From: Rugalucina vietnamica
Taxonomy: Eukaryota; Mollusca; Bivalvia; Lucinida; Lucinidae
Reading direction: 5' to 3'
Length of the DNA stretch: 64,000 bases
Assembly: GCA_964017185.1 (NCBI GenBank)
Contig: OZ024874.1
Span: forward strand, 33,766,721-33,830,720
In this document: positions 38,449-54,681 of the stretch, one piece after another
Layout: each line of letters begins with the position of its first letter
Position numbering within the stretch: position 1 is the stretch's first letter
Made by a program: the position numbers and the translations under genes
The notes under the pieces: generated by a model
Seen by the model: the letters and a program-made list of their open reading frames with translations, nothing else
Databases searched by the model: none
Told to the model about the DNA's origin: nothing

Positions 38449-38640
38449 TGGTGTGTTTGGCGGTATATGTTCTGCCTTGTTTGTTCATAAGTTATCAATT
38501 TATTAATGTGAATAAGGTGATTGTTTTATTTGTTTTGCATTTATTTATTGGGCCAATAAGTGACATCCATGTATAAGGTTTTTCTTTCTTGTTATTTGGT
38601 GGTCCTGAAAAGGACCGTTGGTGTAAAGCAATAAAATTGC
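37400..38640. other. Non-coding interior of the Penelope-like element
   Basis: Includes a TTTATTTATTATTTATTTTA microsatellite (37795-37880) and a 26-bp T run with a GT tail (38408-38440). The minus-strand ORFs here are short and unremarkable. AATAAA at about 38630 is on the plus strand. Confidence 0.45.
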
Positions 38641-38642
38641 TT

Positions 38643-39362
38643 TTATTCAGTGGCCGTTTGCTGCACGGAAGAAGCCCCGGTCGGCGCTGCCCTTTCTGTG
38701 TCCCTGCTCTGGATTCTGATCATCGTGCGTGCCAGATTTTCCATCATAGATGACATTGTTTTCTCGTAGTGAGACACAAATCTTTCAGTAAGGCTGCGCC
38801 ACATTAGCTCTTCTTTTGAAGCAGGTGGGTTTTGCACTCTGTCCTCTGCCGCTGCAATGCAGGATTGCAAGTGCTCTTCTATTGCCTGAGCAAACTGGTT
38901 CACCGTCGTTGACAAGATGGCGTCGATTTTAGAATTTATCACATCAGCATCCGGCATTCGATGTGTGTCCGACGGCCTAGGAGGTGTGTATCTTCCTCGT
39001 TCGAAGTACTTAGCATAGTACGTCTTCCAGTCGTTGGCTACTCGGACGTCGTATTTCGCTCTTGCCAGTGTTTTTTCAGACGGTGTTGTTCCACTGAGTT
39101 TCTCCTCAGGTACAGGGCTTGGAAATCTTCCGTCAAATGCAGGCGCCGTTCTAACATGGGCGTAGGGGGCTGGTCTTCTTGTCCCACGACCTCGGCCTCG
39201 TCCTCTTCCTCTGTGTGCGTTGTGATACATGGTGTTGTTGTCTCGAAGAAAAACTAAGAGTGATAAGGCCAGTTTGTAGAATGTCACCTTATAATGCCGT
39301 TTCAGGCATATTATCTTTGCGAGTTTTACGCATGAAATAATTTGATTGGTCAGAAGTATCAC
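38643..39362 (-). CDS. Unrecognised basic protein, possible first ORF of the Penelope-like element
   Basis: 239 codons as an open frame; the likely start is the Met at about 39231 (MYHNAHRGRGRGRGRG), giving about 195 residues. The N terminus is an Arg-Gly repeat, an RNA-binding-like feature. The middle is Pro-rich, and the C-terminal half looks helical (NSKIDAILSTTVNQFAQAIE; SMMENLARTMIRIQ) with coiled-coil character. It lies downstream of the RT remnant on the same strand, as expected if two copies are arranged in tandem or if it is ORF1 of the next unit. No catalytic motif is seen; the link to the RT is inferred from position. Confidence 0.45.
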   Translation of the reverse strand: MILLTNQIISCVKLAKIICLKRHYKVTFYKLALSLLVFLRDNNTMYHNAHRGRGRGRGRGTRRPAPYAHVRTAPAFDGRFPSPVPEEKLSGTTPSEKTLARAKYDVRVANDWKTYYAKYFERGRYTPPRPSDTHRMPDADVINSKIDAILSTTVNQFAQAIEEHLQSCIAAAEDRVQNPPASKEELMWRSLTERFVSHYEKTMSSMMENLARTMIRIQSRDTERAAPTGASSVQQTATE

Positions 39363-40212: not shown

Positions 40213-40714
40213 TAGCTCACCTGAGCCGAAGGCTCACAGGTGAGCTTATAGTATACCCATGCTCCGGCGTCCGTCCGTCGTCCGTCGTCCACAATTTCAA
40301 AGATCTTCTGCTCTGAAACCGCTTGGCCGATCAAGTTGAAATTTTATGTGGAGCCTCCTTGGGTAGTGGCATTTTAAGTTTGATCGCGAAATCCAGGTCA
40401 CATGACCAAGATGGCCGCCACGCCCATATATGGTAAAAAACCCTTCAAAAATCTTCTTCTCGAGAACCGGTGTAACAGTTTATCTTGCCCCCCTGGACAG
40501 CTTGCCCCCCGGGGGGCAAAATTTCCCGGGAAATCTTACCCCCCACCCTGATTATCTTCACCCCCCGGGGGGTAAGCTGTCCAGGCCAGTTTATCTTGCC
40601 CCCCACCCACTCGGAAAGAAAGTGTTTTTAGAATATATATGTTTATTTTCCTGCACCAATGAAATAATATCATGTCCTTTTACCATTATTTAGTGACATG
40701 TTGTCTAATCCGCC

Positions 40715-40777
<63 letters not shown>

Positions 40778-41267
40778 ATTTACCTAGGTGGGGGTGAAGC
40801 TGTCCAGGGCGGTTTATCTTGCCCCCCGCCTAGGTATTGGAGGATCAATTTTTCTAAGCTTATTACACTGTTTCAAAATTAATACCATAAGAATACCTAC
40901 CTTTTAGAAATGCAATTTATTTGATTAAAAAGCCCTTTTCCTTATCATTCAGTTTTTATACCCTCAGTTACATAGGCGGGGGTGAAGCTGTCCAGGGCGG
41001 TTTATCTCGCCCCCCGCCTATGTATTGGATGATAAAATTTTCTAGGCTTATTACAACTGTTTCCAATTAATACTTAAGAAGCTTGATCAGTTTTAACTGC
41101 AATCAATTTTATTATCAAGACATTTTCCTCGTCTTTCCATTCTATACCCTCAGTTATACAGGCAGGGGTGAAGCTGTCCAGGGCGGTTTATCTTGCCCCC
41201 CGCCTATGTATTGGATGATAAAATTTTCTAGGCTTATTACACTGATTAAAAATTAATGCAGTAGGAA

Positions 41268-41706
41268 ATAAAATAAAACTGATAAATAAAATAAAACTGA
41301 GATCCTTTAAGAGCAGTGAGCATATTTTCGAGAAAGGTGATGGGCCATACCGCGGTTTCGGCTATTCAAGCCTCGTCAGTGACCCTTTAGATTTGGCAAC
41401 ATGGAGCCAAAGAGAGTTACAGTAATTTTTCAACTTTCGGCAGGCTAGTAGATACAAAGACTAGTTAAAAATGGGGCCAAACTATATTGAACGTTGGTTA
41501 GAATATGAATCTAGCCGATAATACTTTTCTGATTTCTCTAAATATCCTCTCTGATCTCAAAGGACCAAAAGGAAAATATAATCTGCACTATGGATGATGT
41601 ACGGGGAGACTTTTTAGGGCCGCCACATGGCACAACACCAGCTGCAGTAATAGCAAATAAAATAAAACTGAGATCCTTTAAGAGCAGTGAGCATATTTTC
41701 GAGAAA
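41268..41706 (-). mobile_element. Retrozyme-like insertion: 1.2 copies of a 371-bp monomer with a hammerhead ribozyme
   Basis: The 187-bp satellite is interrupted between GCAGTAGGAA and GAATTATCAG, a junction that is continuous at about 41890. A segment including AAAACTGAGATCCTTTAAG, through to ATTTTCGAGAAAG, occurs at both ends with a period of 371 bp (41293 and 41664). One complete ribozyme lies inside. A partial tandem of a circular-RNA-sized unit with a ribozyme and no ORF is what animal retrozymes look like. It depends on another element's reverse transcriptase for mobility (inference). Confidence 0.8.
41342..41385 (-). ncRNA. Type I hammerhead ribozyme
   Basis: Read on the minus strand: stem I 5' strand GGGTCA (41385-41380); core CTGACGA (41379-41373); stem II GGCT-TGAAT-AGCC (41372-41360); core GAAA (41359-41356); stem III CCGCGG (41355-41350), two base pairs and palindromic; cleavage-site triplet GTA with U16.1-H17 at 41349-41348; stem I 3' strand TGGCCC (41347-41342). 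All conserved positions of the hammerhead core are present and stem I pairs over six positions (one G-U). Predicted cleavage is between 41348 and 41347. Such short palindromic stem III forms usually act as dimers. Confidence 0.9.
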
Positions 41707-44700
41707 GAATTATCAGTTAGAAGTGCATTTAGTTTGAATACATATCTCTTTTCCTCCTCATTCAGTTCCTATCTTCACTTTCTCAGGTGGGGGTGAAGCT
41801 GTCCAGGGCGGTTTAACTCACCCCCCGCCTAGGTATAGGATGATAAAATTTTCTAGGCTTATTACACTGATTAAAAATTAATGCAGTAGGAAGAATTATC
41901 AGTTAGAAGTGCATTTAGTTTGAATACATAACCCTTTTCCTCCTCATTCAGTTCCTATCTTCACTTTCTCAGGCGGGGGTGAAGCTGTCCAGGGCGGTTT
42001 ATCTTGCCCCCCGCCTAGGTATTGGAGGATCAATTTTTCAAAGCATGTTACACTGTTTCAAAATTAATACCATAAGAAGGTCTACCTTTTAGAAATGCAA
42101 TTTATTTGATTAAAAAGCCCATTTTTCTCGTCATTCAGTTTTATACCCTCAGTTACATAGGCGGGGGTGAAGCTGTCCAGGGCGGTTTATCTTGCCCCCC
42201 GCCTATGTATTGGATGATAAAATTTTCTAGGCTTATTACACTGATTAAAAATTAATGCAGTAGGAAGAATTATCAGTTAGAAGTGCATTTAGTTTGAATA
42301 CATATCTCTTTTCCTCCTCATTCAGTTCCTATCTTCACTTTCTCAGGTGGGGGTGAAGCTGTCCAGGGCGGTTTATCTCGCCCCCCACCTAGGTATTGGA
42401 GGATGAAATTTTCGAGGCTTATTACAACTGTCTCAAATTAATACTTAAGAAGCTTTATCAGTTTTAACTGCAATCCATTTTATTATCAAGACATTTTCCT
42501 CGTCTTTCCATTCTATATCCTCAGTTATACAGGTGGGGGTGAAGCTGTCCAGGGTGGTTTATCTTGCCCCCCGCCTAGGTATTGGAGGAACAATTTTTCA
42601 AAGCATGTTACACTGTTTCAAAATTAATACCATAAGAAGGTCTCCCTTTTAGAAACACCTGGGTGGGGGGGGGGGGGGGGGGGCAAGATAAACCGCCCTG
42701 GACAGCTTACCCCCCACCCATGTACCAATTAGTTTCTTCTTTTCCGACATTGAAAACAAGTTTACAGGGCTTGTCTTGTGAGTATAAAGCCAATTCTTTT
42801 TTATATGAAGGTTGTTCAAGTGATGGTGAAGAAAAAAATATCAACATCAAAAACCTGGGTGGGGGTCAGTTCAAACCGCCCTGGACAGGTTACCCCCCAC
42901 CCCTGTACCAATAAGTTTCTTCTTTTCTGACACTGAAAACAAGTTTATAGGGCTTATCTTGTGATTTAAATCCAATATTATTTTATATGAAGGATGTTCA
43001 AATGATGGTGAAGAAAAAAAAATCAACATCAAAAACCTAGGTGGGGGGCAAGATAAACCGCCCTGGACAGGTTACCCCCCACCCTTGTACCAATTACATG
43101 TAGTTTCTTCTTTTCCGACATTGAAAAAAAGTTTATAGGACTCGTCTTGTGATTTTAAATCCACTTTTATTTTATATCAAGGTGGTTCAAATGATGGTTA
43201 AGAAAAAAAAATCGACATCAAAAAACCTGGGTGGGGGGCGAGATAAACCGCCCTGGACAGGTTGCCCCCCACCCAGGTACCAATTTTTTTCTATTTTTCT
43301 GACACTGAAAACAAGTTTATAGGACTTGTCTTGTGATTTTAAATCCATTTTTATTTTATATTTAGGTTGTACAAATGATAGTGATGAAAAAAAAATCAAC
43401 ATCAAAAAACCTGGTGGGGGGCGAGATAAACCGCCCTGGACAGGTTACCCCCCACCCTTGTACCAATTAGTTTCTTCTTTTCCAACATTGAAAACAAGTT
43501 TATAGGGCTTGTCTTGTGAGTATAAAGCCAATACTTTTTTATATTAAGGTTGTTCAAGTGATGGTGAAGAAAAAAATATCAACATAAAAAACCTGGGTGG
43601 GGGTCAGTTCAAACCGCCCTGGATATGTTACCCCCCACCCCTGTACCAATAAGTTTATTCTTTTCTGACACTGAAAACAAGTTTATAGGGCTTATCTTGT
43701 GATTTAAATCCAATATTATTTTATATTAAGTTGTTCAAATGATGGTGAAGAAAAAAAAATCAACATCAAAAACCTAGGTGGGGGGCAAGATAAACCGCCC
43801 TGGACAGGTTACCCCCCACCCTTGTACCAATTACATGTAGTTTCTTCTTTTCTGACATTGAAAGAAAGTTTATAGGACTCGTCTTGTGATTTTAAATCCA
43901 GTTTTATTTTATATCAAGGTGGTTCAAATGATGGTGAAGAAAAAAAAACAACATAAAAAAACCTGGGGGGGGGGGGGGAGATAAACTGCCCTGGACAGGT
44001 TGCCCCCCACCAAGGTACAATTTTTTTTTCTATTTTTCTGACATTGAAAACAAGTTTATAGGGCTTGTCTTGTGATTTTAAAGCCACTACTATTTATATT
44101 AAGGTTGTTCAAGTGATGGTGAAGAAAAAAGATCAACATCAAAAACCTGGGTGGGGGTGGGGGTGGGGGGGACAAGATAAACTGCCCTGGACAGCTTACC
44201 CCCCACCCATGTACCAATTAGTTTCTTCTTTTCCGACATTGAAAACAAGTTTACAGGGCTTGTCTTGTGAGTATAAAGCCAATACTTTTTTATATGAAGG
44301 TTGTTCAAGTGATGGTGAAGAAAAAAATATCAACATCAAAAACCTGGGTGGGGGTCAGTTCAAACCGCCCTGGACAGGTTACCTCCCAACCCTGTACCAA
44401 TAAGTTTCTTCTTTTCTGACACTGAAAACAAGTTTATAGGGCTTATCTTGTGATTTAAATCCAATATTATTTTATATTAAGGTTGTTCAAATGATGGTGA
44501 AGAAAAAAAATCAACATCAAAAACCTAGGTGGGGGGGCAAGATAAACCGCCCTGGACAGGTTACCCCCCACCCTTGTACCAATTACATGTAGTTTCTTCT
44601 TTTCCGACATTGAAAAAAGTTTATAGGACTCATCTTGTGATTTTAAATCCACTTTTATTTTAAATCAACGTGGTTCAAATGATGGTGACGAAAAAAATAT

Positions 44701-47006
44701 CACTATCAAAAACCTGGGTGGGGGTCAGTTCAAACCGCCCAGGTTACCCCCCACCCTTATAACAATTAGTTTCTTCTTTTTGGACATTGAAAACAAGTTT
44801 ATAGGGCTTGTCATGTGATTTAAATCCAATATTATTTTATATTAAGGTTGGTCAAGTGATAGTGAAGAGAAAAAAATCATCATCAAAAACCTGATGGGGG
44901 GCAAGATAAACCGACCTGGACAGGTTACCCCCCACCCTTGTACCAATAACATGTAGTTTCTTCTTTTCCGACATTCAAAACTTGTTTATAGGACGTACTT
45001 GTCTTTTGATTGAAATCCAATATTATTTCATATTAAGGTTGTACAAATGATGATCAAGACAAAGAATATCAACATCAAAGTCTGGGTGGGGGGTAAGATA
45101 AACCGCCCTGGACAGGTTACCCCCCCCCATCCTTTTACCAATTAGTTTCTACTTTTCCGACACTGAAAACAAGTTTATAGGATCTGTTTTGTTATTTTAA
45201 TTCAATATTCAATATTCTTTTATTTGCAGATGCTTTGTATAGATAATATAGTTATAATGGGGTGGGGGGCAAGATAACCTGCCCTGGACAGGTTACCCCC
45301 AATAAGTTTCCACTTTTGCCACTCTGAAAACAACTTTTTAGGACTTGTCTTGTGATCTTAATCCAACATTTTCATTTTTGGATAGTTAAAAAAATGTGTA
45401 TAAAAATCAATCACAACCAATACTTGAAACTGGGTGGGGGGCAAGATAAACCGGCCTGGACAGCTTGCCCCCCGGGGGTGAAGATATCCAGGGTGGGGAC
45501 AAAATTTCCCGGGACAGCTTACCCCCCGGGGGGTAAGCCAACCGCGGTCAGCTTACCCCCCGGGGGTAAGCTGTCCAGGGGGTAAGATAAACTGGGACAC
45601 CGGCAAGCCGATTTCCACGAAACTTGGTATGTAGCATTGGGGACTTCAGCCCATCATAGTTTGATAAAATGATGACCCTTGGATGACCTTGACCTATTTT
45701 ACGGCTAGGTCAATTTTGGAAACATAGGCTTTTACATGGGAAAAAGTGAAAACTATGGATTTTTTGAAAACTATTGCAGCCTGAGGCCTGAAAAGTGGTA
45801 GATGCAAAACAACTAATGGAGTAGATGAAGGTTTGTGATTGATTTAGGTCAAGGTCATCTCTTGACCTTGGCCAGTCTGTCGTCCATTCACACTTTTCAA
45901 TGATCTTCTTCTCTGAAACTGCTGGGCCAATCAAAGTGAAATTTTATGTGGAGCATTCATGGGTAGGGGAGACGAAAGTTTGATCGCGAAATCCAGGTCA
46001 CATGACCAAGATGGCTGCCACGCCCATATATGGTAAAAACCACTAAAAAATCTTCTTCTCCAGAACCGGTGGGCCGATTTCCACGAAACTTGGTATGTAG
46101 CATCAAGGACCTCAGCCCATCATAATTTGATAAAATGATGACCCTTGGATGACCTTGACCTATTTTACGGCAAGGTCAAATTTGGAAACATAGGCTTTTA
46201 CATAGGAAAAAAACGAAAACTATGGATTTTTTGAAAACTATTGCAGCCTGAGGCCTGAAAAGTGGTAGATGCAAACAACTAATGGAGTAGATGAAGGTAT
46301 GTGATTAATATAGGTCAAGGTCATCTCTTGACCTTGGCCAGTCTGTTGTCCATACACACTTTTCAAAGATCTTCTTCTCTGAAACTGCTTGGCAAATCAT
46401 AGTGAAATTTTATGTGGAGCATCCGTGGGTAGGGGAGACGAAAGTTTGGTTGCAAAATCCAGGTCACATGACCAAGATGGCCGCCACTCCCATATATGGT
46501 AAAAACCTTTCAAAAATCTTCTTCTCCAGAACCGGCAGGCCAATTTTCATGAAACTTGGTATGTAGCATTTGGGACTCCAGCCCATCATAGTTTGTTGAA
46601 ATGATGACCCTATGATGACCTTGACCTATTTTACGGCAAGGTCAACTTTGGAAACATAGGCTTTCACATGGGAAAAGGCAAAAACAAACTGTTGCAGCCT
46701 GAGACCTGAAAGTTGCTAGATGCAGACAACTAATGGAGTCAATGAAGGTAAGTAATTAATGAAGGCCAAGGTCATGTCTTGACCTTGGCCCAAGGTCATT
46801 TAAATATCAAAATTAAAATTATGGTTTTCTCAGAAATCACTGGGTTTGGAAACTATTGCAGCCTGAGACCTGAAACTTTGCAGATGCAGACAACTTATGA
46901 AGTCAATAAAGGTGTGTGAGTATTCAAGGTCAAGGTCATTTCATTATGACTTAATACTCCAAGATCAGGCTTCAGGTGAGCGTTCTCAGGACCAATGGTC
47001 CTCTGG

Positions 47007-47530: not shown

Positions 47531-49805
47531 AACACACGTACGTTTCTCAGAAAACTACTGTGTACACATATATTCACTTAGTTGAATTATTTTTTAGCTT
47601 TCACTATAAAAGCTATCTAAAAGGGTACCAACCCCTTATAATACAGGGTACCAACCCCTGTCTAGCTATAGCAGAAATTGTCAGTACCAACCTGACAACT
47701 GCAAATCAGCGCATACAGTTTACTTATTGTGTTGCCTCCTAGCGACATTTTTGTAAAAGTATACGCGTGATTTCGACCAATATAGCTAGAACGGAAAATT
47801 GATTCCACTGTGTACATTGTCTCACTACATGTGAGAGCACTTTTCAGCGCTATTCTAAAATACACAGTTGTCTCAATTCAATACAGAGTTTGTAATCACA
47901 AAGAATATTTACTGCATCACCATTGCTCTACACCTCAGCAAAAGAAACTTATATATTGTTACTATAAAACAGATACATGTACCACGGTGTTTTTATAAGC
48001 AACTGAAGAAGGGTGGACGACCACCCGAAATCGCGATCTTGCTGAATCCGGCTATTGTCTGCTGGAGTAAAGACATACTTGGTACCTTCATATATCATAA
48101 TAAAACACGAAAAACAAGTTAAAATACCTAGTGTCAGACTGACACTGACCAGTGCCAAGAATCAATCCACGCGCCAAAGGCACTGTGATTTGTCATTATT
48201 TTTCACAATTACGGAAAACACAAGGCCGTAAATTAACACCGCCGCTATGAACCCTAATAAGTTGAAAAATAATGGAGCAAGGCGCCACAAAAAGACATTA
48301 GGGATGAGACTATCCGGATCTACCTCACTAACTGGGCATGTGAGTAGTCCGAGGCGAAGTGGGACCTCTTCTACGGTCAGACACCTACAACCCCCAATTA
48401 ATTTGCTTGATCTGGATATTGTCTTCCAGAGTAAAGACATGCGACTACAGAAATCGCATAAACTGAAATACAAGTACTCCCCATAATGAGAAGGGAGCGA
48501 ACGATAAAACAATGCTACATGCTTAGCCAAATGACCTGATTACGATAACGCAAATTGCATTTAAAACATGAAAATGTGTCAGACTTTTACAAAAGGCCAA
48601 TATATATATTTTGTTTCATCTGGATATTAGCTTCCAGAGTAAAGATATGCGACAACATAATCGCATAAACTTCCATAGATACACTCCCAAGAATGGAAGA
48701 AAAATGATACATGTATAAAGAAATGACACGAAAACACGAATGCAAAATGCATTTCAAACACGAAAATTGCATGTAACACTTTTACATGGCCAATTTATAT
48801 TTTTCTTTATCCGGGTATCCTTCAGAGTAAAGTCATGCGAGAACAAAAATCGCATAAACTGACAAACATGCACTCCCCAGAACTGAATGGGAGCAAAATG
48901 AAAATCATACATGTATAGAGAAGTACTCAGAATACGAGAATGCAAAATGTATTTAAAACACGAAAATTGTTTGAAACGTTTACAAAAGGCCAATATATAT
49001 TGTACGCACAAACTGAGATTTCCGCCGCGGTTGGCTGCTAACTGGGCGTGTGGCCATCTGTGAGGCATAGTGAGACTTCTTCTCCGGTCAGACACCTACA
49101 CCCCCACTTATAACTATACGTTTTGATGGGGGGAAAAATAAAAAATCTTTTTCTCTTAAACCATAGATTTGATATTTGGTATGTGGCAATGGCTAATAGT
49201 CCTCTACATAAATTGTGCCATTCATGCCCCTGGGGTCAAATTTGGCCACGCCCCGGGGGCAGATAGTCGCCATAAACTTACTACTATAGGAAAACCTTCA
49301 AACTTCCCTATGGAACGCCAAAGCTGTCTGATGGTAAGGAATAAAACCATTTGATGCATCATCGTCATTATATCCTGCTCACATTTGATTATATGTTGTA
49401 TAGTGTGCATTATATGATGAGAAAAGTCCATTATATGTTGAACCAGGTTCTTTATATTATGAAAAGTTTCATTATTATGATGAGTAAACATCTTTATATT
49501 ATGGTAGACTTACATTATATGATGAGTAAACATCTTTAAATTATGGTAGACTTACATTATATGCTGATACAACCTCATTATATTATGTATGTTTCTCATT
49601 ATATTATGAGCTATTGTCTTTATATGCATCAAGTTCATTATATGGTTCAATAACTTCATTATATGCGCAAACTTCATTATAATTATGCGCAAACTTCATT
49701 ATATAATGTGACAACTACATTATATGATGTGGACGATTTTGCGAGAAGAAGAATTACATTGACACCATTTAGAGAGTTATTGTATACATGCCGGGACTAT
49801 TGATT

Positions 49806-49829
49806 CTATCTATCTATGATATCTATGAT

Positions 49830-49919
<90 letters not shown>
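49806..49919 (+). repeat. (CTAT)n microsatellite in the left arm
   Basis: About 25 uninterrupted CTAT units. The mirror (GATA)n copy at 53885-53958 is shorter. The ORF reading YLSIYLSIYLS is this repeat. Confidence 0.95.
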
Positions 49920-49987
49920 ATGATGATATATCATCATATCAATATCGATCATCATCATGATCGAAAGTAGTATAGAGGGTGGATTTT

Positions 49988-51380
49988 TAGCTCACCTGAG
50001 CCTTATAGTATACCCATGCTCCAGCGTTCGTCCGTCCGTCGTCCATCGTCCACAATTTCAAAGATCTTCTTCTCTGAAACCGCTTGGGCGATTGTTCTCA
50101 TATTACACATACACCATCTTCAGGTAGGGGGAAAGGATAATTGTGTTTTTTGTTTTGATCGGATAAGGACTCTGGTTGCTATGGCAACTTATGCTTCCCA
50201 TAGACTTATAATGGAAAAAAGTGAAAATTGCCAGTTTTTGCTGTCTTGTTGGAGATATTTGAATTTTGCTTTTGCAGAAATGTTTATTGAGTAGTCCTCT
50301 ACGTTTCATGTGACTTTTGTCCTAATCCTTTATTTTGATTGGTTGCAGGGGCCCCATATAGGGCAAAATTTCGAAAAACATTCAAAAATCTTCTTCTCAG
50401 AAACTGTCAAGGGGATGAAGCCTGTACTTGTATACATGTTCCTGACAGTGGCCTCTACATAATTTGTGTTTTTTATTCCAGGCGGATAAGAACTCTGGTT
50501 GCTATGGTAACTTTAAGTTTCCATAGACTTATAATGGGAAAAGTGGAAATTAGCTATTTTTTGAAAACTATTGTAGCCTGGGATCTGATCCAATCAAAAT
50601 AAAGGATTAGGACAAAACTCGCAAGAAACGTCAAACACTACTCAATAAACATTTCTGCAAAAACAAAATTCAAATGTCTGCAATTTTAGCGGAAAAATAG
50701 CCGATTTCCACTTTTCCCATTATAAGTGTATGGAAAGGTCATCTCTTGACCTTGGCCGGTCTGTCGTCCATACTCACTTTTCGAAGATTTTTTTCTCTGA
50801 AACCAATCAAAGCCAAATTTTATATGAAGCATCTGTAGGAAGTGGGAACCAATGTGTATATAAGTAATCCAGGTCACATGACCAAGATGGCCGCCATGCC
50901 CATATAATGGTAAAAACCCTTAAAATATCCAGAACCGATGAACCAATTTCAACGAAACTTTGCATGAAGTATGGATGACTGAAGTACTACAATGTATGTA
51001 TAAATCATGACCCTGTGGTGACCTTGACCTATTTTATGGCAAGGTCAACATAGGTCGTCAATGCATTTGAATGGGGAAAACTTTTAAAATGTCATTTTAA
51101 GTGAAAGTCTTGCAGGAAATGGGCAGTAGGACTGAATATTAATGATTCTGAAAAAAAAAATGGACCCCAGGGGCTCATCTGCTTTTAAAATGTTATTTGA
51201 AGGGGAAAATGAGCAGGAAAATGGCAAATGGACAGAATATTGATTATTCTGAAAAAAAGAAAATGGCCCAAGGGCTTCATCTGCCCCTGCACTGGGGTTA
51301 AATACCATAATATTTTAATATGTTTATTGGTATATGAAGCGGATCTCAGGTGAGCGTTTACAGGACCATTGGTCCTCTGG
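49988..51380 (+). mobile_element. Helentron-like element, copy I
   Basis: It starts TAGCTCACCTGAGCC after GGATTTT; the second half of the 5' hairpin is missing. It ends CAGGTGAGCGTTTACAGGACC, CTCTGG (51380) before TTAATC. The interior contains an inverted segment (about 50585-50735) of its own GGATAAG-type unit. The uninterrupted other arm (53755-53775) shows insertion between two T. Confidence 0.8.
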
Positions 51381-51559
51381 TTAATCTACTTTCATGGTCG
51401 CATGGTGTTGTTTGGTTGTTCAAGATAGCGGCCTCCATGGGACCGATATTGCGCAATATTTCGTAAGATCCACGAATCATTCTATTTCCGTTTCCATGCC
51501 ACTTTCGATCCGGTTTCTTATTGGCATTTTAAGAACGGCTAGCGTCATCCTGGCCACCA

Positions 51560-52610
51560 TTAGCAGACTTCCAGGATACCGGTGCCAATTAGATTAAGCT
51601 TAGATTTCAACTCCCAATACCCTCCCGAGTCAAAAACGTCAGTCTGCGACACTACCAGACCACTCGCAGTCTTCCAGGATACCGGTGCCAATTAGTTTAA
51701 GCTTAGATTTCGACCCCCAAGACCCTCCCGAGTTGAAAGCGTCAGTCTGCGACACTATCAGACCACTCGCAGACTTCCAGGATACCGGTGCCAATTAGTT
51801 TAAGCATCTATTTTGACTCTCAAGACCCTCCCGAGTTGAAAGTGTCGGTCTGCGACACTACCAGACCACTCACAGACTTCCAGGATACCGGTGCCAATTA
51901 GTTTCAGCTTAGATTTCGACCCCCAAGACCCTCCCGAGCCGAAAGCGTCGGTCTGCGACACTATCAGACCACTCGCAGACTTCCAGCATACCGGTGCCAA
52001 TTAGTTTAAGCATATATTTCGACTCCCAAGACCCTTCCGAGTCGAAAGTGTCGGTCTGCGACACTATCAGACCACTCACAGACTTCCAGGATACCGGTGC
52101 CAATTAGTTTAAGCATATATTTCGACTCCCAAGACCCTTCCGAGTCGAAAGCGTTGGTCTGCGACACTATCAGACCACTCGCAGACTTCCAGGATTCTGG
52201 TGCCAATAAGCTTAGATTTCGACTATCAAGACCATCCGGAATCGAATGCGTCGGTCTGCGATAATATCAGACCACTTGCAGACTTCCAGGAGTACGGTGC
52301 CAATAGAGTAAAAGCCTGATTTGACCTTCTCAAACCATATAACACGGTTTGAAATAGTCTGCGAGACGTTCTGACTACTCGCAGACTTCCAGGATTCCGG
52401 TGCCAATAGGGTAAAAGCATCATTTGATATTCTGAGATCCTATAAGACCATTTGAAACGGTCTGCGAGACGGTTTGACTACTTGCAGACTTCCAGGATTC
52501 CGGGGTCAATAGAGTTAAAATGATTTGACCTTGTTAGACCCTATAAGACCATTTGAATTGTCTGCGACAAGTTTGGACTGCTCACAGACTTCCAGGAATC
52601 TGGTGACACA
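51560..52610 (+). repeat. 103-bp satellite, forward array
   Basis: CTTCCAGG starts at 51568, 51671, 51774, 51877, 51980, 52083, 52186, 52283, 52386, 52489 and 52589. Units contain GGTCTGCGACACTATCAGAC and GATACCGGTGCCAATTAG. Units grow more divergent toward the centre. Confidence 0.95.
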
Positions 52611-52844
52611 ACTGTTGCTACCAAACCTTGACTATCGTTCGTCCAAATACACATATATCCAATGTATGTAGCACACAACTGCCCATAAACCATATAGTAT
52701 ACGGGGGTGGGGTGGGGTTTTCGCTGAGTATGACAGTCACCGAAAAGTGTCAAATAGCCATTTTGTAGGGTGCAAGGAGTCAGAATGAGGAACTGGGGAG
52801 GCATGAAGATAACCTAGCTCCATAAACTCCAATCAGAGCTAAAT

Positions 52845-53590
52845 CCTGGAAGTCTGCGAGTGGTCTGATATTGTCGCAGACCGACGCTTTCGATTCGGGA
52901 TGGTCTTGAGAGTCGAAATCTAAGCTTTCACTTATTGGCACCGGAATCCTGGAAGTCTGCGAGTGGTCTGGTAGTGTCGCAGACCGACTATATCGACTCG
53001 GGAGGGTCTTGGGAGTCGAAATATATGCTTAAAACTAATTGACACCGGTATCCTGGAAGTCTGCGAGTGGTCTGATAGTGTCGCAGACCAACGCTTTCGA
53101 CTCGGGAGGGTCTTTGGGGTAGACATCTAAGCTTAAACTAATTGGCACTGGTATCCTGGAAGTCTGCGAGTGGTCTGGTAGTGTCGCAGACCGACGCTTT
53201 CGACTCAGGAGGGTCGGGAGTTGTAATATATGCTTAAACTAATTGGCACCGGTATCCTGGAAGTCTGCGAGTGGTCCGATAGTGTCGCAGACCGACGCTT
53301 TCGACTCGGGAGGGTCTTGGGAGTCGTAATATATGCTTAAACTAATTGGCACTGGTATCCTGGAAGTCTGCGAGTGGTCTGATAGTGTCGCAGACCAACG
53401 CTTTCGACGTGGAAGGGTCTTGGGGGTCGAAATCTAAGCTTAAACTAATTGGCACCGGTATCCTGGAAGTCTGCGAGTGGTCTGGTAGTGTCGCAGACCG
53501 ACGCTTTCGACTCGGGAGGGTATTGGGAGTCGAAATCTAAGCTTAATATAATTGGCACCGGTATCCTGGAAGTCTGCTAGTGGTGGCCAG
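52845..53590 (-). repeat. 103-bp satellite, inverted array
   Basis: The same monomer in reverse orientation, about eight copies (CCTGGAAGTCTGCGAGTGG near 52845, 52948, 53051, 53154, 53255, 53358, 53461, 53564). The unique centre 52611-52844 separates the two arrays. Confidence 0.95.
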
Positions 53591-53884
53591 GATGACGCTA
53601 GCCATTCTTAAAATGCCAATAAGAAGCGGGATCAGATATCGAAAGTGGCACGGAAATGGAAATAGAATGATTCGTGGATCTTACGAAATATTGCGCAATA
53701 TCGGTCCCATGGAGACCGCCATCTTGAACAACCGAACAACACCAGGCGACCAGGAAAGTAGATTAAAAATCCACCCTCTATACTACTTTCGATCATGATG
53801 ATGATGATGATCGATATTGATGATGATATATCATCATGACGATGATGATGATGGTGATGATCGATCATGATCATGATGATTATG

Positions 53885-53958
<74 letters not shown>
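53885..53958 (+). repeat. (GATA)n microsatellite in the right arm
   Basis: Mirror of the (CTAT)n run, preceded by a GATGAT-rich stretch (53794-53880). Confidence 0.95.
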
Positions 53959-54681
53959 ATCAGCAGTATGTCCGGTAGTCCCGGCATGTATACAATAACT
54001 CTCTAAACGGTGTCAATGTAATTCTTCTTCTTGCAAAATCGTCCACATCATATAATGTAGTTGTCAAATCATATAATGAAGTTTGCGCATATAATGAAGT
54101 TTGCGCATATTGAACCATATAATGAACTTGATGCATATAAAGACAATAGCCCATAATAATGAGAAACATACATAATATAATGAGGTTGTATCAGCATATA
54201 ATGTACCATAATATAAAGATTTTTACTCATCATATAATGTAAGTCTACCATAATATAAAGATGTTTACTCATCATATAATGAAAACTTCCATAATATTAA
54301 GAACCTGGTCCAACATATAATGGACTTTTCTCATCACATAATGCACACTATACAACATATAAATAATCAAATGTGAGCAGGATATAATGATGATGCATCA
54401 AATGTTTTTATTCCTTACCATCAGACAGCTTTGGAGTTTCATACTTCCCCATTGACTCTTTGTTCTCATGCAAGTGAAGCTGTCCAGATCAGGTGAGTGT
54501 TTACAGGACCATTGGTCCACTGGTTTATCTCACCTGAACCAATGGCAGCAAGTAACCCATGCTCTGGAATCTGTCGTCATTGTTGTTGTCATGTTCAAAC
54601 ACCTTTTTCTCTGAAATCACTTGGCCAATCAATGTTAAACTTCCTATGGAGCATCCTAAGGAAAGGGGAATAAAAGCTTTT

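Follow-up and report, generated by a model that had tools for sequence, protein, structure and literature searches.

The window analysed here, a 64,000-nt stretch of the genome of the bivalve Rugalucina vietnamica (C6:33766721-33830720), contains only one copy of a short, ribozyme-bearing element that interrupts a satellite unit inside a larger foldback element. The features of this locus are as follows:

40466-45603 (also delimited as 40471..45598), no strand assigned: foldback element of approximately 5.1 kb, built from 186-bp and 183-bp units in inverted arrays and carrying the retrozyme
41268..41706, minus strand: retrozyme insertion, 439 nt, with a period of 371 and an empty site in the sister repeat at 42164-42420
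41268..41283, minus strand: 16-nt repeat of the unit end, seen in the sequence as part of an 18-nt tandem repeat at 41266-41300
41284..41654, minus strand: one full 371-nt unit, 40.4% GC, longest ORF 68 aa
41284..41298, minus strand: U-rich tract AGUUUUAUUUUAUUU, unit positions 50-64, the common RNA-sense 3' end of the family
41342..41385, minus strand: type I hammerhead ribozyme, from a descriptor scan with a chance expectation of 0.0018
41655..41706, minus strand: start of the second lap, 52 nt; the variable RNA-sense 5' end of this copy lies at its outer edge
42164..42420, plus strand: empty target site in the neighbouring satellite unit, matched by the joined flanks of the insertion

The insertion consists of one 371-nt unit that continues for 52 nt into a second lap and, on the left, a partial repeat of 16 nt, which corresponds to approximately 1.14 laps of the unit plus the 16-nt repeat, or 1.18 copies overall. 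It contains a direct repeat of 53 nt (spacing 371, 100% identical). The unit lacks a long ORF: when it is treated as a circle, the longest ORF starting with ATG is 26 aa in the sense direction and 68 aa in the antisense direction. An earlier, sequence-only reading of this DNA had described the insertion as about 1.2 copies of a 371-bp unit with one ribozyme and no ORF, and the 53-nt repeat at this spacing and the absence of any ORF above 68 aa bear this out. That reading had also placed the right edge about 12 nt from the predicted 5' end of the cleaved RNA; the measured start of the insert is at +12/+13. The interrupted target is a 186-bp satellite unit. When the flanks of the insertion are joined and compared with positions 42164-42420, the first 211 nt are identical except for one G that belongs to the target, and no target-site duplication was found at this copy beyond a 2-nt ambiguity. 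From its sequence, the 16-nt repeat at 41268..41283 is interpreted as an abortive start of the reverse transcriptase at the U-rich tract, followed by a second start there.

The foldback element has the termini TGTAACAG...CTGGGAC(A), with the ends TGTAACAGTTTATCTTGCCCCC and TGTCCCAGTTTATCTTACCCCC (reverse complement), and ACCGG adjoins it on both sides as a possible 5-bp target-site duplication. The same retrozyme insertion recurs in a second copy of the foldback arm (L128, C8:34278682), which is 97.96% identical to the window over 2254 nt, flanks included. The suggestion that this copy and its place inside a foldback element might be new was consequently not upheld. Elsewhere in the window (49400-54300) there is a second inverted structure with outer repeats of 42 bp and 21 bp and inner 103-bp tandem repeats in opposed orientation (51556-52605 and 52843-53584). 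Closely downstream of an ORF with an arginine-glycine-rich start (38575-39362) there is a histone 3' stem-loop (Rfam, 37.2 bits); the protein has no Pfam match at E≤0.01, and two homologues were found besides the window's own protein (67% and 42% identity). The window also encodes a reverse transcriptase; in a list of 120 relatives, the best named one comes from the pearl oyster Pinctada imbricata (45%), suggestive of a mollusc.

The minus strand at 41342-41385 folds into a complete type I hammerhead that is open at stem I: GGGUCA-CUGACGA-GGCU-UGAAU-AGCC-GAA-AC-CGCG-GU-A-UGGCCC. Stem I has 6 bp, stem II has 4 bp and a 5-nt loop, and stem III has 2 bp closed by the palindromic tetraloop CGCG; the core consists of CUGACGA, GAA and the A-U pair followed by A (H17). 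Judging from this arrangement, cleavage would occur between 41348 and 41347. This was the sole match in the window in a scan with a type I descriptor, and a relaxed scan for types I and III returned the same single site. The descriptor gave 11 matches in 787 Mb of order-2 Markov sequence, i.e. 0.0018 expected per 128 kb, so that the hammerhead described in the sequence-only reading, with all core positions, stems I and II and a 2-bp palindromic stem III, is well founded. Rfam speaks against the site: at the gathering score none of its hammerhead models was reported for the window, and a search of 41200-41800 at E≤10 did not list one. Among 20 sister loci scanned, Hammerhead_1 was reported in one (L238), over model positions 1-45 of 45 and in the register of the sequence-only reading, with 23.1 bits (E-value: 0.16) against a gathering score of 34. 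The covariance-model check that had been proposed is therefore negative for the window site itself and gives a match below the gathering score in one sister. As there was no call at threshold and a score of 23.1 bits in 1/20 sister loci, Rfam was dropped as sole judge of the ribozyme.

Constraint on the ribozyme was assessed in 53 distinct 44-nt sequences, in which 92.1% of the cells pair. At one pair of stem II, 32 of the sequences have G-C and 15 have A-U. None of 500 shuffles reached the observed covariation score or the observed number of cells with changes on both sides, and no slid structure reached the score. Shuffles did match the number of pairs with changes on both sides (1) and that of further pair types (10), so the G-C/A-U exchange may be a single event. 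The test covers stems I and II only, because the pattern used to collect most of the ribozymes fixes the core and stem III.

Folding predictions concern the way in which such a short stem III might be used. For a single 44-mer another fold is favoured (-14.6 kcal/mol, compared with -10.7 kcal/mol for the hammerhead), while two 44-mers together fold exactly into a double hammerhead (-39.3 kcal/mol). In a tandem dimer RNA, the cost over the best fold is 0.7 kcal/mol for the double hammerhead versus 11.2 kcal/mol for two single hammerheads. In these models, the palindromic stem III would favour the double hammerhead in a tandem dimer. The pairing gain of the 44-mer dimer was equalled in 175/500 shuffles; because that many shuffled 44-mers gain as much, the energy gain alone proves nothing, and it was rejected as stand-alone evidence. 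The stability of the circular unit was reached by 1/100 shuffles for the ribozyme strand (z -2.5), compared with an ordinary stability for the opposite strand (z -0.6). The element is thus of the retrozyme type, with thousands of relatives and an intact type I hammerhead for which self-cleavage is predicted.

The genome searched comprises 1.09 Gb in 47 contigs. The core pattern CTGANGAN{10,20}GAAACCGCGGTA was matched 6607 times, compared with 1 match for a reversed control; several matches are possible per multi-lap copy, so the figure counts matches to the core pattern. With the insert as query, at least 68 matches were obtained (40 of 3601 candidates scored). The sequence-only reading had proposed looking for other genomic copies, and with 6607 matches against 1 they are evidently present. 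The spacings in 12 sister units were 362-382, and 29 of the 127 ribozyme instances in near-relative loci, many of which are not independent, depart from the core pattern. One other insertion, represented by L138 and its relatives, lies inside another multi-copy element with repeats of approximately 40 bp. Most of its loci contain 1.27 laps, whereas L160 and L161 contain 2.26, and unit number therefore changes by whole units after insertion. There is also a long rearranged array of retrozyme units at C6:32086785-32096508, interrupted by foreign sequence and with ends that fall elsewhere than in the usual tract. No comparable element was found among the sites listed from prokaryote and virus contigs: at least 127 sites in at least 126 loci matched a partial pattern, of which 8 had stem II and none was a complete hammerhead, and blastn among these sites detected no similarity to the retrozyme unit. 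A stricter pattern with a 14-nt hairpin, which does not match the window copy, had zero matches in viral contigs.

Two samples of copies were used to compare ends, with unit position 1 defined as the first nucleotide after the cut. The near-relative sample consists of well-preserved copies, one per insertion (n=14), and is biased toward long copies; two older copies, L130 (end 65, 0.66 lap) and L142 (end 18), and the pieces of the rearranged C6 array were placed outside it. The pattern sample consists of 75 loci, of which 15 came from the stricter pattern and 60 were taken in order along C1 from the core-pattern list, leaving out 989622 and 12713058 (already among the sampled places) and 7658488 (skipped). 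This second sample is free of the length bias, apart from the requirement that every copy carry an intact ribozyme. An alignment containing the ribozyme was obtained for 74/75 loci, the exception being L243, and 8 that ran off the 3' side were dropped, leaving n=66. Junctions were mapped in 72 elements, comprising the 14 near relatives and 58 of the 59 tract-ending copies described below (one runs off the 5' side).

The RNA-sense 3' ends of these copies are nearly fixed. They lie at unit positions 58-72 in 59/66 pattern-sampled copies, compared with approximately 2.7 expected if they were uniform, and at positions 64-67 in 47 of the 66; all 14 near relatives end at positions 60-68. This common end lies at the U-rich tract, approximately 65 nt downstream of the cleavage site. 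In the remaining 7/66 copies the end is elsewhere (L178, L180, L183, L191, L192, L225 and L226), with L183 and L191 having had ends at 60 and 67 under an earlier alignment. The RNA-sense 5' ends, in contrast, are spread around the unit: those of the near relatives are at 12, 20, 362, 68, 100, 254, 337, 131, 210, 357, 346, 284, 126 and 370. Copies range in length from 0.27 to 3.0 laps, and 36 of the 72 junction-mapped copies have at least one lap. In the C1 sample (n=47), 30 copies are shorter than one lap, 11 have one to two laps and 6 have two or more, a distribution for which an exponential fall-off is not rejected (p 0.14). The sequence-only reading had pointed to the right edge near the cleavage position as fitting reverse transcription of a cleaved or circular RNA. 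As a defining end, this edge does not survive comparison with the sister copies, whose 5' ends are spread and whose defining end is the U-rich tract.

An accumulation of 5' ends precisely at the cut was considered and discarded, the excess there being mild. Of the 36 copies of at least one lap, 7 begin no more than 12 nt from the cut, compared with 2.4 expected, and 2 no more than 3 nt from it, compared with 0.7 expected; L183, which is outside the 36, begins exactly at the cut. The number of 5' ends in the interval from 337 to 20 was 12/36 compared with 5.3 expected, and because the range was picked after the near relatives had been seen, this is taken only as a hint that the enzyme is slowed in the ribozyme region or that cut RNAs serve as some of the templates. 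At the RNA-sense 5' junction of L159 there is an inverted 12-nt copy of retrozyme sequence, resembling a second-strand snap-back.

No regular target-site duplication was found in the 72 elements, which show a mild excess of flank matches. Matches immediately at the two junctions were no better than in shuffled pairs (72 elements, p 0.19). In a wider flank comparison, matches of at least 8 nt occurred in 8/70 elements (3.6 expected), and 7/61 and 3/61 were above the shuffled 95% and 99% levels, respectively (3.1 and 0.6 expected). The three above the 99% level are L219 and L138, both in tandem repeats, and L241, which may have a real 13-nt target-site duplication; duplication may thus occur in a minority of copies. 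Empty sites reconstructed from neighbouring repeats are clean for L127 and L219, with nothing duplicated or lost. The empty site of L138 is less sharp owing to diverged repeats; it is best read in the same way, 5 additional nt being assigned to the element end. At least 3 of the 72 junction-mapped insertions (L127, L138 and L219) lie inside tandem repeats.

When 66-nt flanks of the 72 elements were compared (E≤1e-4), no two matched at the same offset from the junction. Three pairs have common repeats at another offset or on the other strand. One of these pairs, L201 and L203, has 45 nt in common (97.8%) just upstream of the 5' ends, at different offsets; this may be a common repeat, sequence carried over from a source locus or the result of a template switch. 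A target preference for CA after the tract was rejected, since this dinucleotide showed no enrichment (7 compared with 5.75 expected). Close to the 3' junction, two flank positions rarely have G (3/71 and 2/71, counts only). With thousands of core matches, a common 3' end and unrelated flanks, this retrozyme is a dispersed, high-copy, retrotransposed element.

A fixed end at the tract, combined with variable opposite ends and copies of more than one lap, requires the tract to be the starting point of synthesis and the template to run unbroken across the cleavage site. Since this start is downstream of the cut and the copies cross an intact junction, a cut linear monomer cannot have been the template of the sampled copies, all of which were chosen for an intact ribozyme; inserts from a cut monomer (up to approximately 65 nt, without a ribozyme) fall outside such a sample. 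The sequence-only reading had offered reverse transcription of a cleaved or circular RNA. The circular alternative gains support here, while the cleaved linear monomer is set aside for the sampled copies. At the level of sequence, the data fit a circular or multimeric RNA that is reverse-transcribed from one fixed internal site, and a circle is the simplest template.

We consider it probable that this is a non-autonomous animal retrozyme of which a circle is copied in trans from the U-rich tract, with a variable stop and usually without target-site duplication. Transcription, cleavage, circularity, the mode of priming and the enzyme are inferred from the comparison of copies. In the mechanism proposed, the palindromic stem III of the minus-strand RNA would favour double-hammerhead action in tandem transcripts, and the cut monomer would then be closed into a circle, by analogy with what has been published for Mytilus. 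A reverse transcriptase supplied in trans would begin on the U-rich tract, in most cases at 64-67 downstream of the closed cleavage site, with the 3' end of nicked or broken target DNA as the most likely primer. The enzyme would circle the template and leave it at varying points, 0.27 to 3.0 laps on in the copies measured, and the cDNA would be joined to the target, usually without a target-site duplication. Two observations make a target-primed start the preferred reading: the empty sites are clean, and on the left side of the window copy, next to a target ending in GGAA, the cDNA opens with ATAAAATAAAACTGA and then starts over.

The same features could be approached from a different starting molecule or a different order of events. 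The cDNA might be made first, primed at the tract by a small RNA or by itself, and then captured at a double-strand break by end joining; the absence of regular target-site duplications and the lack of CA enrichment after the tract (7 compared with 5.75 expected) speak for this. Set against it, there is no visible deletion at any of the three empty sites (3/3, L138 being less sharp), the GGAA target end beside an A-rich cDNA start and the 16-nt restart resemble priming at the junction, and the scarcity of G near the 3' junction (counts only) could mean a target preference. We regard capture of finished cDNA as doubtful. An uncut linear multimer transcribed from tandem genomic copies would make a circle unnecessary and would equally yield copies of more than one lap. 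Tandem arrays do exist, as at C6:32086785-32096508, and the 45 nt common to L201 and L203 could be source-locus sequence. However, 30/47 C1 copies are shorter than one lap, so that most copies are not arrays themselves, and the 5' flanks differ apart from the three pairs with common repeats; we think a multimeric template unlikely.

RNA polymerase III tends to stop at runs of T4-T5, and the tract contains such runs. The fixed 3' end might on this basis be a transcription end, belonging to a linear RNA that stops at the T-rich tract and is copied from its 3' end. This is improbable, as copies of more than one lap read through one or two internal tracts and many ends are at the final UAUU(UG), beyond the T runs. 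It is least credible of all, and in our judgement very nearly dismissible, that these are ordinary satellite monomers which DNA recombination has spread and whose ribozyme is a relic or arose by chance. In its favour, some copies are arrayed, unit number changes after insertion (L138 compared with L160 and L161) and 29/127 ribozyme instances in the near-relative loci, many not independent, are off the core pattern. The dispersed insertions with unrelated flanks, the empty sites and the 6607 intact-core matches against 1 in the control all point the other way, and a satellite origin is contradicted by the common 3' end.

The window element belongs to a kind already described, the animal non-LTR retrozymes: the type I core is intact, the 371-nt unit falls within 150-450 bp and is noncoding, and the GC content of 40.4% is below 50%. 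The sequence-only reading had stated that retrozymes are known in some animals, and the kind has indeed been described for the mussel Mytilus galloprovincialis (PMC7229834). According to that description, the Mytilus family has type I hammerheads (approximately 5000) in units of 350-390 bp with low GC content and no LTR, most of the conserved loop-loop nucleotides are missing from the mussel hammerheads, and circles of retrozyme RNA are reported. Compared by description, the two families have in common the type I hammerhead, a unit length within 350-390 bp and low GC content. They differ in that the start of reverse transcription is mapped here and no regular duplication accompanies it; in PMC7229834, as far as it was consulted, the start is not mapped, and target-site duplications of animal retrozymes, when present, are given as >4 bp. 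Tandem repeats with type I hammerheads also occur in Nematostella (PMC4918200). Those repeats have LINE-like target-site duplications of 15 bp, in contrast to the lack of regular duplications in the family described here.

Other hammerhead-bearing repeats are less similar. Plant LTR retrozymes (PMC4918200) are likewise non-autonomous and have a hammerhead and a circular RNA intermediate, the last of which is presumed for the window family. They carry type III hammerheads in LTRs, 4-bp duplications, and PBS and PPT boxes (PMC4918200). The window element was rejected as a plant LTR retrozyme, having type I topology, no type III match and no duplication at the window copy. The hammerhead satellites of newt and axolotl have a short stem III with a palindromic loop that favours a double hammerhead, as here; these amphibian repeats are approximately 330-350 bp, and a fixed insertion end is not among the properties described for them in the part of PMC7229834 used here. 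Penelope-like elements also contain type I hammerheads in tandem, but they are autonomous and their minimal ribozymes are missing most of helix III (PMC7761336). The window element does not encode its own reverse transcriptase (longest ORF 68 aa) and was rejected as a Penelope-like element. Such elements have been proposed to mobilise retrozymes (PMC7229834).

The return of hammerhead circles into animal genomes has been proposed before, with priming of the circle by target DNA or by a small RNA left open in the account in PMC7229834; the start of reverse transcription is mapped here from the comparison of genomic copies. A search of the literature on retrozymes (bivalves, Mytilus, target-primed synthesis and truncation) identified no title or abstract on a mapped start of reverse transcription for an animal retrozyme, with an earlier report being possible, and the strings "truncat" and "priming" are absent from the main text of PMC7229834. 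Extended to animal retrozymes, the pattern would be one dedicated U-rich start tract approximately 65 nt past the healed cleavage site, up to three laps of synthesis and, usually, neither duplication nor deletion. We would give this extension an even chance, and it is weighted lower because of the mild excess of flank matches.

The combination of a fixed start tract and variable stops makes the integration route directly testable and names the sequence to mutate. The tract, rather than the cleavage site, is predicted to define the end of the element, and the self-cleaved linear monomer is excluded as the template of ribozyme-bearing copies. If this is true, the family would be based on a ribozyme-made circle equipped with a dedicated site at which a helper reverse transcriptase starts. 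This route would be unlike the one reported for the Nematostella repeats with their 15-bp duplications.
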